From Schlesneria sp. (lineage in GTDB: Bacteria; Planctomycetota; Planctomycetia; Planctomycetales; Planctomycetaceae), in contig JAQGHU010000088.1 of assembly GCA_028291515.1 (NCBI GenBank), positions 62,001 through 126,000 of the forward strand: DNA of 64,000 bases, read 5' to 3'. The notes beneath the pieces were generated by a model. The model did not search any database, was not told where the DNA came from, and worked only from the letters and a program-made list of their open reading frames with translations. Shown piece by piece: positions 13,467-18,399 of the stretch. Numbering within the stretch: the first letter of the stretch is position 1; each line of letters begins with the position of its first letter. The position numbers and the translations under genes are program-made.

Positions 13467-14921
13467 ATGACACCATCCAATTTCTGTGGTCGCACTCGAC
13501 GTGAGTTTTTGTGGCAGGCGGGCGGCGGTTTTGCCGGAACCGCCCTCGCCGGAATGCTGCAGCAGGACGGCTTTTTCAATTCCGCAGCGCGCGGTGCCGA
13601 AGGGCCTGCCCACCAGAATCCGCTGGCTGCGAAGGAACCGCACTTCATCCCCAAAGCGAAACGCGTCATTTTTCTGTTCATGTATGGCGGACCAAGTCAT
13701 ATCGATACGTTCGACTACAAGCCCGCCATGAAAGGGCGAGATAACCAGTCAGTCGACGTGAAGACCTTTGGTCGCGGTGGCCATAAGAATCAGGGACGAA
13801 TTGTCGAACCACGTTGGAACTTCAAGCAGTACGGCGAATGCGGACACTGGGTCAGCGATTTGTTCCCTCATGTCGCCACGTGCGTCGATGACATCGCGTT
13901 CCTGCACTCGATGACTGCGGATTCGCCGATTCACGGTTCCGCGATGTTGATGATGAACTCGGGCAAGATCCTGTCGGGCAGTCCGTGCCTGGGTTCGTGG
14001 GTCAACTATGGACTGGGCAGCGTCAACGAAAACCTGCCCGGCTTCGTGGTGATGCTGGATCCGACCGGTGGTCCCATCAGCGGGGCAAAGAACTGGTCGA
14101 GCGGCTATATGCCCGCCACCTACCAGGGAACGATCCTGCGTTCCAAAGGGGCACCGATCATTGATCTCAGCACCCCGGAAGGAACCAGCCGTGCGATGCA
14201 GCGCGAACTGCTCGACACCTTGCGAGACACCAACGCCGATCACCTGGCGAGTCGAGCGGACAACACGGATCTGGCGGCCCGTATCAACAGCTATGAGCTC
14301 GCGTTCAAGATGCAGCAACACGCCCCTGAAGCGGTGGACCTGTCGACCGAAACCGAAGCGACTCAGAAGATGTACGGATTGGACAACCCACGCACGCTCG
14401 ACTTTGGCAAGCGGTGTCTGCTCGCACGACGATTGGTTGAACGAGGCGTCCGTTTCGTTCAACTCTACTCGGGCGGCAACCACAATGACGCAAATTGGGA
14501 TGCGCATGGTGACTTGGAGAAGAACCACAATTTCCACGCGGGCAATACAGACCAACCGATTGCGGCTCTGCTCAAAGACCTGAAGCAACGCGACATGTTG
14601 AAAGATACGTTGGTCGTGTGGGGTGGTGAATTCGGTCGACAACCCACCGCCGAATACGCGGCTGGAACCGGTCGCGACCACAATGCGTACGGGTTCACGA
14701 TGTGGATGGCGGGCGGCGGTGTGAAGGGGGGGACCAGCGTCGGAACGACCGACGAACTTGGTTCGGTCGCGGTCGATTCACCGTTCCACGTGAAGTATCT
14801 GCACGCCACCGTGCTGCATCAGATGGGCTTGGATCCGAACAAGCTTTCCTACTTCCACGGCGGGTTGGATCAGAAGTTGGTGGGAGTCGAGCACGTGGCA
14901 CCGATCCGCGAAATCATCTAA
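13467..14921 (+). CDS. DUF1501 protein, Tat-exported
   Basis: A 484-residue protein of the DUF1501 family, distantly related to sulfatases/alkaline phosphatases. The N-terminus has a Tat signal (RTRREFLWQAGGGFAGTALAGML, twin arginines 11-12). Domain blocks include RVIFLFMYGGPSHIDTFDYKP, FPHVATCVDDIAFLHSMTAD, WDAHGDLEKNH and VVWGGEFGRQPTAEY, which supply the aspartate/histidine residues expected of the fold. It lies 64 bases after the PSCyt/DUF1549/DUF1553 gene, the standard planctomycete pairing, so the two are probably co-transcribed and act together in the periplasm. The substrate is unknown. Confidence 0.93.
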   Translation: MTPSNFCGRTRREFLWQAGGGFAGTALAGMLQQDGFFNSAARGAEGPAHQNPLAAKEPHFIPKAKRVIFLFMYGGPSHIDTFDYKPAMKGRDNQSVDVKTFGRGGHKNQGRIVEPRWNFKQYGECGHWVSDLFPHVATCVDDIAFLHSMTADSPIHGSAMLMMNSGKILSGSPCLGSWVNYGLGSVNENLPGFVVMLDPTGGPISGAKNWSSGYMPATYQGTILRSKGAPIIDLSTPEGTSRAMQRELLDTLRDTNADHLASRADNTDLAARINSYELAFKMQQHAPEAVDLSTETEATQKMYGLDNPRTLDFGKRCLLARRLVERGVRFVQLYSGGNHNDANWDAHGDLEKNHNFHAGNTDQPIAALLKDLKQRDMLKDTLVVWGGEFGRQPTAEYAAGTGRDHNAYGFTMWMAGGGVKGGTSVGTTDELGSVAVDSPFHVKYLHATVLHQMGLDPNKLSYFHGGLDQKLVGVEHVAPIREII

Positions 14922-15021
14922 CGAATCGCATCGTGTAGCTGGTCGCCATCACCGATCAGTGGGTATCCGCAATCTCGGCAAGTTTGCTGATATATGCGAG
15001 ATTCAACACATCTTTTAGTAG

Positions 15022-15049
15022 TTGACATTTCATGCAGGCGCAGTAAACA
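15022..15049 (+). promoter_or_regulatory. Possible sigma-70-like promoter of the Rhs–PLA2 cassette
   Basis: TTGACA at 15022-15027 is a perfect -35 hexamer. With a 16-base spacer TAAACA (15044-15049) is a weak -10 match. Transcription would start about 30 bases before the ATG at 15082, which has GGAGAG at 15072-15077. Planctomycete promoter rules are poorly known, so this is tentative. Confidence 0.3.
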
Positions 15050-15081
15050 GGAGCAAAACTGTTGTATATTTGGAGAGTGTG

Positions 15082-16479
15082 ATGACCACGATCCAATGCC
15101 AGCGAAAGACGCTGGAAGAATTGCTGGAATCCATTACGCTTGGGGAATTGCCAGCCGTGACGGACGACATTGCCGAACGAAACTTGCTTTGTGCTACGGG
15201 GTTACCCGGCAGTCAATCGCTTGATATAGATGCGGCACTGGCACGAATCGATGAAATGGCCTATCGGGTCAATGCGGAAATCCGCCGGAATTATCACCGT
15301 TTTGTGGCTAATCCAGCCGAAGGTGACAACTCCCAGGCGAAATACTGCGTCTTGATGATGGTGACGGTTCTCCAACAAGATTTTGGAGTCCAGTATAACC
15401 CAGATCGTATCCGGACACCCGATTTCCGAGACGCAGGCGACCTCTTTATCCACGGCATGCTTAGCGGCAACGGAGGAACCTGCGCGTCGATGCCGGTGTT
15501 ATATACGGCCGTCGGAAGACGACTCGGCTGGCCGATGAAGCTGTCCAGCACGCTCAGCCATTTCTTCTGCCGTTGGGACGATCCAAACGGGAGACATCTG
15601 TTCGGGAAAGAACGCTTCAATCTGGAAGGAAGCGGACAAGGCGCGCATTTGGTCTCTGATGACTACTATCGAACATGGCCGCGACCGATCTCGGACGAAC
15701 TGATTGAGGGCTTGGGCTATTTAAAATCGCTGACTCCTGCAGAAGAAACTGCGGCGTTTCTCGCATTGCGAGGACATTGTCTCGAAGACAATGGGAGAAT
15801 TGCAAAGGCATGTGATGCCTACTTTGCGTCATCGCGTCTAGCACCTACTGATCGGATCTATAAGACTTTTTGGGAGTGTGCTGATCTACTCCGCGAACGG
15901 CTTATCGAACGGCAAACATTGTTGGACTACTTCGGCCCGGATGTACCATTGCCATTTGGATACTTTCCGCGGCACGTGTTGCGTCAGATGGCTGCCGATA
16001 TGGCGTTTGCGGAATGCGAATATTTCAACCTGACGCAGCGGTTAGAGCGAGAGCAATTTGAGGCACGATTCCGAACACAAGTGCATGGGGGGATATCAAA
16101 TCGACGGCTTGTTTCTCAACAAAACGCCGGAAAGTCATCAGAAAGTCCGTATCTGCCGTCTTCGCTTCCCCATTCGCAGTTGCACGCGGGATTCGATGCA
16201 ACAGGCTTACCGATTCCGCCCGGAATTGCCGGACTGTCGTCTTACAGTCCCGATCTTATGGGTATCAATTCCGTATTTCCAACGGCAAATGGCCCTGGCA
16301 ATGATTCATTGCCTGCCAAAGTGCTACGAACAATTGACCCGCAATGCTTTGCGATGCGCAGACAAGAAGCGGTTGCGATCGCCAAGTCCTTACCAAAGGA
16401 CGTAGCTATCAGGCAACCCCGCCGACGGTTACTCACGCCTCCGAATCAATCGCGACCAATACAATCTCAGGAGATCTGA
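15082..16479 (+). CDS. Transglutaminase-like protein, first gene of Rhs–PLA2 cassette
   Basis: A 465-residue cytoplasmic-looking protein with a transglutaminase-like core. GNGGTCASMPVLYTAVGRRLGW (about 129-150) provides the probable nucleophile C134; STLSHFFCRWDDP provides H160 and D166/D167, completing a Cys-His-Asp triad. Residues 230-340 are helical and may be TPR-like. The last 110 residues are low-complexity, Pro/Ser/Arg-rich and not domain-like. No signal peptide. It could cross-link, deamidate or process a protein partner. Its stop is two bases before the ATG of the Rhs–PLA2 gene, implying translational coupling. The region looks more AT-rich than its neighbours. Confidence 0.72.
   Translation: MTTIQCQRKTLEELLESITLGELPAVTDDIAERNLLCATGLPGSQSLDIDAALARIDEMAYRVNAEIRRNYHRFVANPAEGDNSQAKYCVLMMVTVLQQDFGVQYNPDRIRTPDFRDAGDLFIHGMLSGNGGTCASMPVLYTAVGRRLGWPMKLSSTLSHFFCRWDDPNGRHLFGKERFNLEGSGQGAHLVSDDYYRTWPRPISDELIEGLGYLKSLTPAEETAAFLALRGHCLEDNGRIAKACDAYFASSRLAPTDRIYKTFWECADLLRERLIERQTLLDYFGPDVPLPFGYFPRHVLRQMAADMAFAECEYFNLTQRLEREQFEARFRTQVHGGISNRRLVSQQNAGKSSESPYLPSSLPHSQLHAGFDATGLPIPPGIAGLSSYSPDLMGINSVFPTANGPGNDSLPAKVLRTIDPQCFAMRRQEAVAIAKSLPKDVAIRQPRRRLLTPPNQSRPIQSQEI
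16469..16473 (+). promoter_or_regulatory. Ribosome binding site of the Rhs–PLA2 gene
   Basis: AGGAG sits eight bases before the ATG at 16482, inside the last codons of the transglutaminase-like gene. It decides the start of the Rhs–PLA2 gene and shows that the Rhs fragment is a translated small gene rather than the tail of a longer frame. Confidence 0.7.
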
Positions 16480-16481
16480 CA

Positions 16482-17054
16482 ATGTACTCGTCGACCACCG
16501 GAACATTTCTGCAACGCGATCCCTTGGGACAAAGTGAAAATGGCATACTCGAGTATTCGCACGGTGCGATCACAGAAATGATGCAAATCAAAAATGACCG
16601 ACGCCAGTCTCGTGCTGTCGCATCCGAGTTTCCTTTTCAACAGGCGACGCGAAGTAATGCTCCCTCAATCGAAGAGATCGATGTCGGCGAAAAGCAGAAC
16701 CTATATGCATACGTCGTGAACAACCCTGTCAATTTCGTCGACCCTTACGGGCTATATGCCACTCCCGGCTACGGTCATTTTTGTGGACCTCGAAGCGGAC
16801 AAGAATGGGATGGAAAGACTCCATTAGATTGTCTCGACACTGCTTGCCTATGGCACGATGAGTGCGTGGGGACACTGGATTCAATCTATCCCGGTAAACT
16901 TACGTACTGCGACCAGATGCTCAGCATCAAGGCATACTACTGCCTGATCTTTGGATGCGACACAGCCGCTTGTCGCACGGCAGCAACGATCATTGGCATC
17001 TGGATGGCAGTGCCTGGCGGGGGCACATGCCCGATTGGACCATCTTTCAAATGA
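16482..17054 (+). CDS. Rhs-core fragment fused to phospholipase A2-like domain
   Basis: A 190-residue protein. Residues 1-16 (TTGTFLQRDPLG) and 73-91 (NLYAYVVNNPVNFVDPYGL) are the Rhs-repeat-associated core signatures that end Rhs/YD proteins just before a variable toxin. What follows (97-165) matches the phospholipase A2 pattern: calcium loop YGHFCG (97-102), catalytic DCLDTACLWHDEC with H125-D126, and a later CDQMLSIKAYYC supplying another aspartate and cysteines. Such enzymes cleave the sn-2 ester of phospholipids. No signal peptide and none of the long N-terminal Rhs shell are present. A small membrane gene overlaps its stop by ATGA. Toxin role is inferred. Confidence 0.78.
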   Translation: MYSSTTGTFLQRDPLGQSENGILEYSHGAITEMMQIKNDRRQSRAVASEFPFQQATRSNAPSIEEIDVGEKQNLYAYVVNNPVNFVDPYGLYATPGYGHFCGPRSGQEWDGKTPLDCLDTACLWHDECVGTLDSIYPGKLTYCDQMLSIKAYYCLIFGCDTAACRTAATIIGIWMAVPGGGTCPIGPSFK

Positions 17055-17326
17055 GGAGTATCGACTTGGCGACGTACGGCCACCGGAAAATCGGACTCGT
17101 CATTGCGATGGGCAGCCTCAATCTGTTTCTGTTCTGCGCTGCCACCGTGATGGCTATTCCAGTGTGGATCATCTGTATGGCTTCCGCAGCGGGTGCGGTA
17201 ATTGGAATCGTGGCCAAAAGCTCTGGGGGTGATGCGACTATTCGTGCGATGGCAGGCAGTGCAATAGCCATTTTCAGTGTTTTCGGCCTTATGTTGTCGA
17301 TCTTTGGCCGCTTGATCGGACCGTGA
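17051..17326 (+). CDS. Small three-helix membrane protein, candidate immunity protein
   Basis: A 91-residue protein with three predicted membrane segments at about 13-34, 36-55 and 65-88, a short basic N-terminus and little else. Its ATG overlaps the TGA of the Rhs–PLA2 gene in an ATGA arrangement, so it is probably translated in step with that gene. A small membrane protein coupled to a membrane-attacking phospholipase is the expected layout for an immunity partner, but this is inference: I recognise no family. It might instead be an unrelated membrane protein or a carrier for the effector. Confidence 0.62.
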   Translation: MRSIDLATYGHRKIGLVIAMGSLNLFLFCAATVMAIPVWIICMASAAGAVIGIVAKSSGGDATIRAMAGSAIAIFSVFGLMLSIFGRLIGP

Positions 17327-17493
17327 GTAGGTTGTGCAGAGTATCGATGCATCGATCGCTTACCGAAGTTCATCAAGGACGCAGGCGGGGTGGCAATGTT
17401 CTACTGTCTCGCGATGGGATGGCGTTGAGCAGGCAAATCGGAAAAATCGAAATGAGTGGGCCAGGTGCTGCCGCTTTAGAATCGTGAAGGCGG

Positions 17494-18399
17494 CTATCGC
17501 ACTCGTACGCGAGTCCGCTGATTGAGATAGTCCACCAGATCGTCGCCGAGGTTATGGCTGGTATCGATGATCACTCGCTCGATGGCATTGCGGCGACAGA
17601 GATCGTCGAGCGCCGCTTCGTAACGTCGCATCGCTTGGAGATAGCCCTGCCGAATATCTTCGGTTTGAGTCAGATACTCGCTGACTTCTTCCAACCCCAG
17701 GAACTTGACCATTCCCTCGAACTGGAATGTCCGCTCGTGATGGTGCAGCACATGGAATAGCACCACTTCATGGCGGTTGTATTTCATTCGCTGGAGCGCA
17801 GCTTCCAACGCTTCCAGATCCGTGAAGAAGTCGCTGAAGATCATGACAATCTCTCGGCGACCCATCCGGCCAGTCAGTTCTGTCAGGCAATCCGCCATCT
17901 GGGTTTTTTCGACCGGCTTGATCTCGTCCAGATGATGAGTCATCCGGTGGATCTGAGCGAGCGAATTCCCGGGCGGTACGTAACCGCGCACTCGATCGTC
18001 GAAGGTCGAGAGCGACACTTTGTCGTTCTGACGGATAATGGAATAACCGAGTGTGGTGGCGGCTTGAGCTGCGTAGAGCATCTTCTGCTGCAGATCATCG
18101 CCATACCGCATGGACGCACTGACATCCAGCAGCAGATGACAAACGAAATTCGTCTCCATCTCGTACTGTTTGATCGACAGGCGATCGCGTTTGTAATACA
18201 GCCGCCAGTCGATGTGCCGTGGGTCATCGCCGACGATGTAATCGCGATGGCCAGCGAATTCGACGGCGAAGCCGGACAAGGGCGACTTGTGAGCCCCCGC
18301 CAAATTGCCCACAACCAATCCGCGCGGCTCCACAGGCCGATCAGCCACCCGGCTGAGGACTTCAGGATTGAGATACCGAGAAAGAACGGATGTGGTCAT
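17494..18399 (-). CDS. DUF58 (VWA-like) protein, cluster I
   Basis: A 301-residue DUF58 protein. The family block GDDPRHIDWRLYYKRDRLSIKQYE (57-80) precedes a VWA-type metal-ion site LLLDVSASM (D92, S94, S96) and later IVMIFSDFF. DUF58 proteins pair with MoxR ATPases, which are thought to act on VWA partners as chaperone-like regulators of metal-binding or envelope complexes. It follows the MoxR gene by 43 bases as the last gene of a long minus-strand operon. No membrane segment is visible. Its paralogue is at 62667-63620. Confidence 0.93.
   Translation of the reverse strand: MTTSVLSRYLNPEVLSRVADRPVEPRGLVVGNLAGAHKSPLSGFAVEFAGHRDYIVGDDPRHIDWRLYYKRDRLSIKQYEMETNFVCHLLLDVSASMRYGDDLQQKMLYAAQAATTLGYSIIRQNDKVSLSTFDDRVRGYVPPGNSLAQIHRMTHHLDEIKPVEKTQMADCLTELTGRMGRREIVMIFSDFFTDLEALEAALQRMKYNRHEVVLFHVLHHHERTFQFEGMVKFLGLEEVSEYLTQTEDIRQGYLQAMRRYEAALDDLCRRNAIERVIIDTSHNLGDDLVDYLNQRTRVRVR

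Follow-up and report, generated by a model that had tools for sequence, protein, structure and literature searches.

The mini-Rhs gene described here is probably complete and encodes the effector of a polymorphic toxin system made up of two genes and lacking the Rhs cage. In the accepted picture of Rhs toxins, a large shell keeps the toxin enclosed until release. The gene lies in a 64,000-nucleotide stretch of a Schlesneria sp. contig (the window) and encodes P0001, a protein of 190 aa without a YD-repeat shell, which matches an 85-position model of the conventional Rhs core only from position 47. We favour as more likely the view that mini-Rhs is a variant of the Rhs polymorphic toxins, cage-less and paired with a papain-like partner. 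It is likewise more likely that the two-gene system is widespread, with a conserved papain-like protein nearly always followed by a mini-Rhs with swapped ends.

In the mechanism that we propose, the first gene would supply a papain-like (Transglut_core2) and TPR protein whose Cys-His-Asn site is intact, and the second would supply the last part of the Rhs core (the mini-core), with both aspartates, joined to an exchangeable domain. The partner would recognise the constant mini-core, in the cytosol or the periplasm depending on the lineage, and would cleave, transfer or escort it, leading to release or delivery of the tail. This action would stand in for the cage and the aspartyl autoproteolysis of long Rhs proteins. 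The exchangeable domain in the window resembles secretory phospholipase A2 (PLA2) and would cleave membrane phospholipids, and the 91-aa membrane ORF behind it would confer immunity against the tail of its own module. Only the mini-core is constant and the compartment is mostly common to both proteins, so the mini-core is the partner's most likely target. Among the reactions considered, a cut that would free the tail is preferred, by analogy with the autocleavage of long Rhs proteins (PMC8636562, in excerpt) and with McjB (PMC10318531, in excerpt).

The gene pair and its recurrence

Table 1. Features of the module, in positions of the window
Feature	Position	Strand	Details and basis
Mini-Rhs effector gene P0001	16482..17054	+	190 aa; ORF and TIGR03696 match
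AGGAG, likely ribosome site of mini-Rhs	16469..16473	+	within last codons of partner gene; sequence
First part of mini-core, MYSSTTGTFLQRDPLG (D13)	16482..16529	+	model of seven conventional cores, matched from position 47; alignment A7
Residues 17-72, between the two core parts	16530..16697	+	alignment A7
Second part of mini-core, NLYAYVVNNPVNFVDPYGL region (D87)	16698..16754	+	TIGR03696 positions 52-76; A7; conventional-core model
PLA2-like tail: YGHFCG 97-102, H125-D126, GCDTAAC 158-164	16755..17051	+	tail alignment and profile search
Partner gene, Transglut_core2 (papain-like) and TPR, 466 aa	15079..16479	+	PF13369 match
91-aa ORF with three hydrophobic stretches, candidate immunity protein	17051..17326	+	sequence
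Interval holding the module	14921..17493		alignment with nearest relative G012 (L235)

The ORF given in the first-pass annotation was found again with the same length, start, motifs and ribosome site. The AGGAG lies 8 nt 5' of the ATG, which itself follows the stop of the partner gene by 2 nt. In the numbering of P0001, RDPLG begins at residue 12 (D13), DPYGL at D87 and YGHFCG at Y97. The terminal Rhs-core signatures that had been claimed agree with a match to NCBIfam TIGR03696 (Rhs_assc_core) at 36.2 bits, above the cut-off of 32.5. Translation of the short gene, also claimed, is supported by low pN relative to pS against a locus of the same genus, L039, both in the core (pN 0.148, pS 0.85; 27 codons) and in the partner (pN 0.244, pS 0.761; 459 codons), in a comparison where synonymous sites are saturated, the core sample is small and the L039 core segment was taken six codons late.

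Loci were gathered by the partner sequence only. The partner was found in 14 of 149 genomes and, with at most 4 candidates scored per genome, in 55 of 397 genomes of the window's class, the window's own genome being included in both counts. To these were added 80 named loci, the best among 91 from GTDB genomes with titles naming Planctomycetia, Phycisphaerae, Verrucomicrobia and Lentisphaerae. The resulting 151 partner loci were reduced to 134 without duplicates and to 124 with at least 400 nt downstream. An Rhs core lay downstream on the same strand, at most 900 nt away, at 111 of these 124 non-redundant loci; on the upstream side, the 1000 nt preceding the partner contained a core at 3 of 74. 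In a related genome, one of the matches to P0001 (L005) belongs to the same kind of gene pair and has a different tail. Rhs cores occur in 97 of the 149 genomes, again with the window's own included, and at eight other places in that genome. Cores are therefore common, and the pairing is specific to the partner, by whose sequence the loci were gathered. No description of the pair was found in the titles and abstract openings of the papers listed for Rhs, transglutaminase, polymorphic toxins and menin.

No downstream core was seen at the other 13 loci (L112, L125, L134-L139, L155, L163, L171, L174 and L195). Six of them, L134-L139, are fragments or weak partner matches, and at L155, L171 and L195 a mini-Rhs lies upstream of the partner. 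In L134, L135 and L136, which come from the window's genus, the partner match covers only about 70 residues and is followed by ORFs without an Rhs core. L125 and L174 have a partner followed by a tail without mini-core; the L125 tail begins MLSPLKGRTF, and the L174 tail resembles by eye that of L041.

Mini-core, exchangeable tails and compartment

The model of the conventional core was made from seven cores of the window's genome and was matched by 133 of 135 mini-Rhs. The match started at position 25 or later in 129 of them and at positions 45-49 in 76; the four matching from position 1 are additional Rhs genes in the vicinity of a partner. TIGR03696 was matched by 119 of the 127 mini-Rhs scanned. 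Among the 44 rows of alignment A7, D13 is invariant and D87 is kept in 90% or more. These correspond to the two aspartates of the autocleavage region of Rhs toxins. In long Rhs proteins the catalytic aspartate lies within the second such motif (PMC8636562, in excerpt). Residues 17-72 of the window's mini-Rhs hold about 50 residues more than most A7 rows. By eye, a signal peptide ends directly before the mini-core start in many Phycisphaerae and Verrucomicrobia, and in many genes of the window's class the Met start falls at that point.

Tails were scanned in 127 of the 135 mini-Rhs, the eight of 116 aa or less being excluded. Pfam matches comprised PT-HINT (4), TGL (3), Hint_2 (3), Intein_splicing (3), Tle1-like (2) and SLT (2), with one match each for CDI EC869, WHH, colicin DNase, Aspzincin, PLA2, Laminin_G_3 and others. 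At least 97 of the 127 matched no Pfam family, and PADLOC matched none of the mini-Rhs. Several loci carry more than one mini-Rhs. Two in tandem on the minus strand of L091 (1647-3336) are identical at 111 of their first 117 bases and differ thereafter, and the second of them ends in a PLA2-like tail. Mini-Rhs resemble Rhs/YD-repeat toxins (T6SS Rhs, TcC, WapA) in having a C-terminal core with two conserved aspartates and an exchangeable domain. They differ in that the YD cage and the first 45 or so core positions are missing, in the separate papain-like partner gene, and in having a signal peptide or none.

The tail of P0001 alone scored 14.5 bits against PF00068, below the cut-off of 32.1, and in phmmer it matched the PLA2 structure 2wg8, which we take to be a rice enzyme, at E=0.0024. 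A profile of four related tails (from the window, the long Rhs L004, and the mini-Rhs L090 and L091) matched the PLA2 2wg7 at E=1.1e-6. Among the 60 matches listed for this profile (of 126), 57 are named phospholipase A2; the other three are a bungarotoxin, a vipoxin complex and BthTX-IIa, presumably all members of the PLA2 family. The resemblance to PLA2 goes beyond chance, because the four-tail profile finds mainly phospholipase A2. An HMM search had been suggested as a check on the tail; the single sequence stays under the Pfam cut-off, whereas the profile supports the junction of an Rhs-core tail with a PLA2-like domain. The YGxxCG calcium loop and the His-Asp pair, which had been put forward as its PLA2 motifs, are invariant in the four tails. 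Homologues behind full-length Rhs proteins had also been suggested, and L004 provides one, in an open frame of 1361 aa. The L090 tail belongs to a mini-Rhs from a different family within the window's class, and the L091 tail to the tandem mini-Rhs with a signal peptide. A pattern scan found PLA2-like tails in 3 of 135 mini-Rhs, the window's counted.

Two features of the tail were absent from the first-pass annotation. One is GCDTAAC, which we take to resemble the third sPLA2 motif and whose Asp is not conserved in L090; the other is the presence of nine cysteines within 99 residues (92-190). The predicted structure is a poor model in the region of the calcium loop and H125/D126 (pLDDT 42-48 over residues 91-140). 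The calcium loop and His-Asp pair are common to the window's tail, Tox-PLA2 (PMC3482391, in excerpt) and secretory PLA2 (PF00068; 2wg7), but the protein that carries the window's tail is 190 aa long and has a partner gene, and the tail alone stays under the Pfam cut-off. We infer that the tail is toxic.

Median tail cysteine content is 5.9% in the window's clade (14 tails), 0.5% in other mini-Rhs without a signal peptide (30 tails) and 1.6% in those with one (42 tails).

Signal peptides of mini-Rhs and membrane segments of partners were called by a home-made hydropathy rule in 104 of 116 pairs, the other 12 having an incomplete partner N-terminus. Both features were present in 38 pairs and neither in 56. 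The 10 discordant pairs (mini-Rhs only in 6, partner only in 4) were read individually. L142, L143, L156, L158 and L164 look like misses of the rule and L095 and L107 like false signal peptides, and L172, L181 and L192 remain discordant. With labels corrected by eye, 3 changes on a tree of the 104 partners account for 'neither' and 6 for 'both'; the agreement therefore depends on few events. It suggests that partner and mini-Rhs mostly share a compartment, cytosol or periplasm depending on the lineage. Most Planctomycetia mini-Rhs seen, including that of the window, have no signal peptide. A cysteine-rich tail should need an oxidising place, yet the window's mini-Rhs has no signal peptide, and this counts against our explanation.

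The partner protein and competing explanations

The partner gene starts at GTG 15079 or ATG 15082, and no signal peptide was seen in the window's protein. This protein matches PF13369 at 29.5 bits (cut-off 23.5). In alignment A6, which is made up of the window's protein and those from 67 of the 72 usable named loci, 67 of the 68 members match the family at E<=1, and the Cys, the His and the Asn are each kept in 68 of 68. The predicted structure has block means of pLDDT 94-98 over residues 31-270, and in this model the three residues follow the papain-like order, with C135 before helix 138-148, H161 on strand 161-168 and N181 on strand 178-183 (numbered from 15079). The three residues would make up an intact and active papain-like site. 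TPR matches lie C-terminal to the papain-like part of the partners. The predicted fold appears to resemble menin, which is a scaffold with a peptide-binding pocket (PMC13256885, in excerpt) and is called solely eukaryotic in an excerpt of PMC10318531. Menin PF05053 is absent from the Pfam table of the window's protein and from the families listed (25 of 40) for the 68 partner members. In one clade (L041, L042, L044, L048), repeated PGHxxxCxCxxC motifs were seen by eye behind the TPR part.

According to the same excerpt of PMC10318531, it is unknown what bacterial Transglut_core2 proteins do. E. coli YchA (SirB1) has by annotation the transglutaminase-like and TPR layout of the window's partner and a weak match to the partner profile (hhalign probability 18, E 0.0013), but it lacks the aligned Cys and His that Rhs-linked relatives keep invariant (L242:4321-5127), and none of the 14 features listed around it is an Rhs gene. 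McjB (Transglut_core3) has the transglutaminase fold and is the processing enzyme for the precursor of an antibacterial product (PMC10318531, in excerpt); it belongs to a different family, and McjA is the precursor of a lasso peptide rather than an Rhs protein. The inactive transglutaminase domains of RHS toxins described by Zhang et al. 2012 (PMC3482391, in excerpt) are Rhs-associated and lie near a signal peptide or TM helix. They are fused ahead of RHS arrays and lack one or more of C, H and D, unlike the window's partner, which is a separate gene with invariant Cys, His and Asn.

It is very improbable that the gene is the orphan tip of a long Rhs that lost its N-terminal part beside an accidental neighbour. 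Such decay would fit the abundance of cores elsewhere, the insertion of about 50 residues between the core parts, and the four extra Rhs genes near partners that keep a whole core. It is opposed by the same kind of neighbour at 111 of 124 loci, the similar core boundary across mini-Rhs, the signal peptides that end directly before this boundary in many lineages, and the low pN relative to pS. The remnant reading is contradicted by the conserved pairing, and we reject it. The first-pass annotation was right to join an Rhs-core tail to a PLA2-like domain, but it missed the upstream partner, and its statement that only the tail remains does not hold, as the same core part in short genes directly behind a papain-like partner forms a large family. 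One of its options, a genuinely short effector, was right. The main rival to our explanation, although we doubt it, is a partner that serves as a general antitoxin or chaperone and masks the mini-core until export without any chemistry. The TPR matches behind the papain-like part and the predicted likeness to the menin scaffold with its pocket would suit a binder, and a constant partner with varying tails should bind the constant mini-core, which we also count for it. A pure binder would, however, have no need of the invariant Cys, His and Asn.

Two further explanations concern what the tails do. A surface display or exo-enzyme system, in which the mini-core attaches extracellular enzymes to the cell and PLA2 serves lipid scavenging, seems improbable to us. 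Enzyme or lectin-like tails (TGL, SLT, Laminin_G_3) are compatible with display, and a transglutaminase fold could serve for the covalent attachment of proteins. CDI nuclease, colicin DNase, WHH, PT-HINT and Tle1-like tails nevertheless belong, by their family descriptions, to polymorphic toxins or effectors, among which HINT and HNH/PLA2 toxins are known (PMC3482391, in excerpt), and the absence of a signal peptide from most Planctomycetia versions also speaks against display. Slightly less improbable, but still unlikely, is a tail with the PLA2 fold that is a non-catalytic PLA2 homologue. The lone score under the Pfam cut-off, the putative third-motif Asp not kept in L090 and the name PLA2 homologue carried by some PDB matches point that way, against the invariant calcium loop and His-Asp pair of the four aligned tails.

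Within the two-gene toxin system, a narrower version of the partner's role is put forward tentatively. The partner may be a menin-like papain-fold enzyme whose TPR pocket recognises an N-terminal tag of mini-Rhs and whose Cys-His-Asn site cleaves, anchors or transfers the tagged toxins. The fixed tag, approximately Y-x-P-x-x-G-x-[FW]-x-x-x-D-P, would be held much as menin holds the peptide of its partner. If true, this would be the first function for bacterial Transglut_core2 and would make the partner a bacterial menin relative with an intact active site; the predicted likeness itself would bear on the origin of such a scaffold. A family that over several phyla keeps only the last core stretch and a papain-like partner raises the question of what this stretch does alone, and the fixed pairing gives the Transglut_core2 family a testable role. 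The modules also supply many short genes with tails outside Pfam.

The downstream ORF and the module site

The 91-aa ORF overlaps the mini-Rhs stop (ATGA), and a longer reading of its frame, from 16955, gave no family match above cut-off. It is plausible that this membrane ORF is an immunity protein against a membrane-attacking tail. In L091 a 146-aa membrane ORF comes immediately after the PLA2 mini-Rhs; the next ORFs behind the PLA2 tails of L090 (589 aa) and L004 (273 aa) are not small membrane proteins. A closely following ORF was found at 80 of 97 loci and in 175 of 970 shuffles, an excess that any operon could give.

The module was acquired, lost or exchanged as one unit. G014 has the module and its DUF58 neighbour on separate contigs of a 390-contig assembly, which proves little. 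In G012 the neighbour proteins are 99-100% identical to those of the window. The alignment with G012 runs at 90% up to base 14920, in the stop region of the preceding gene, and resumes at 17494 (88%), at the stop of the gene that follows the module. At the module site G012 carries, by eye, hydrolase-like and acetyltransferase-like ORFs (L235:2732-4680).
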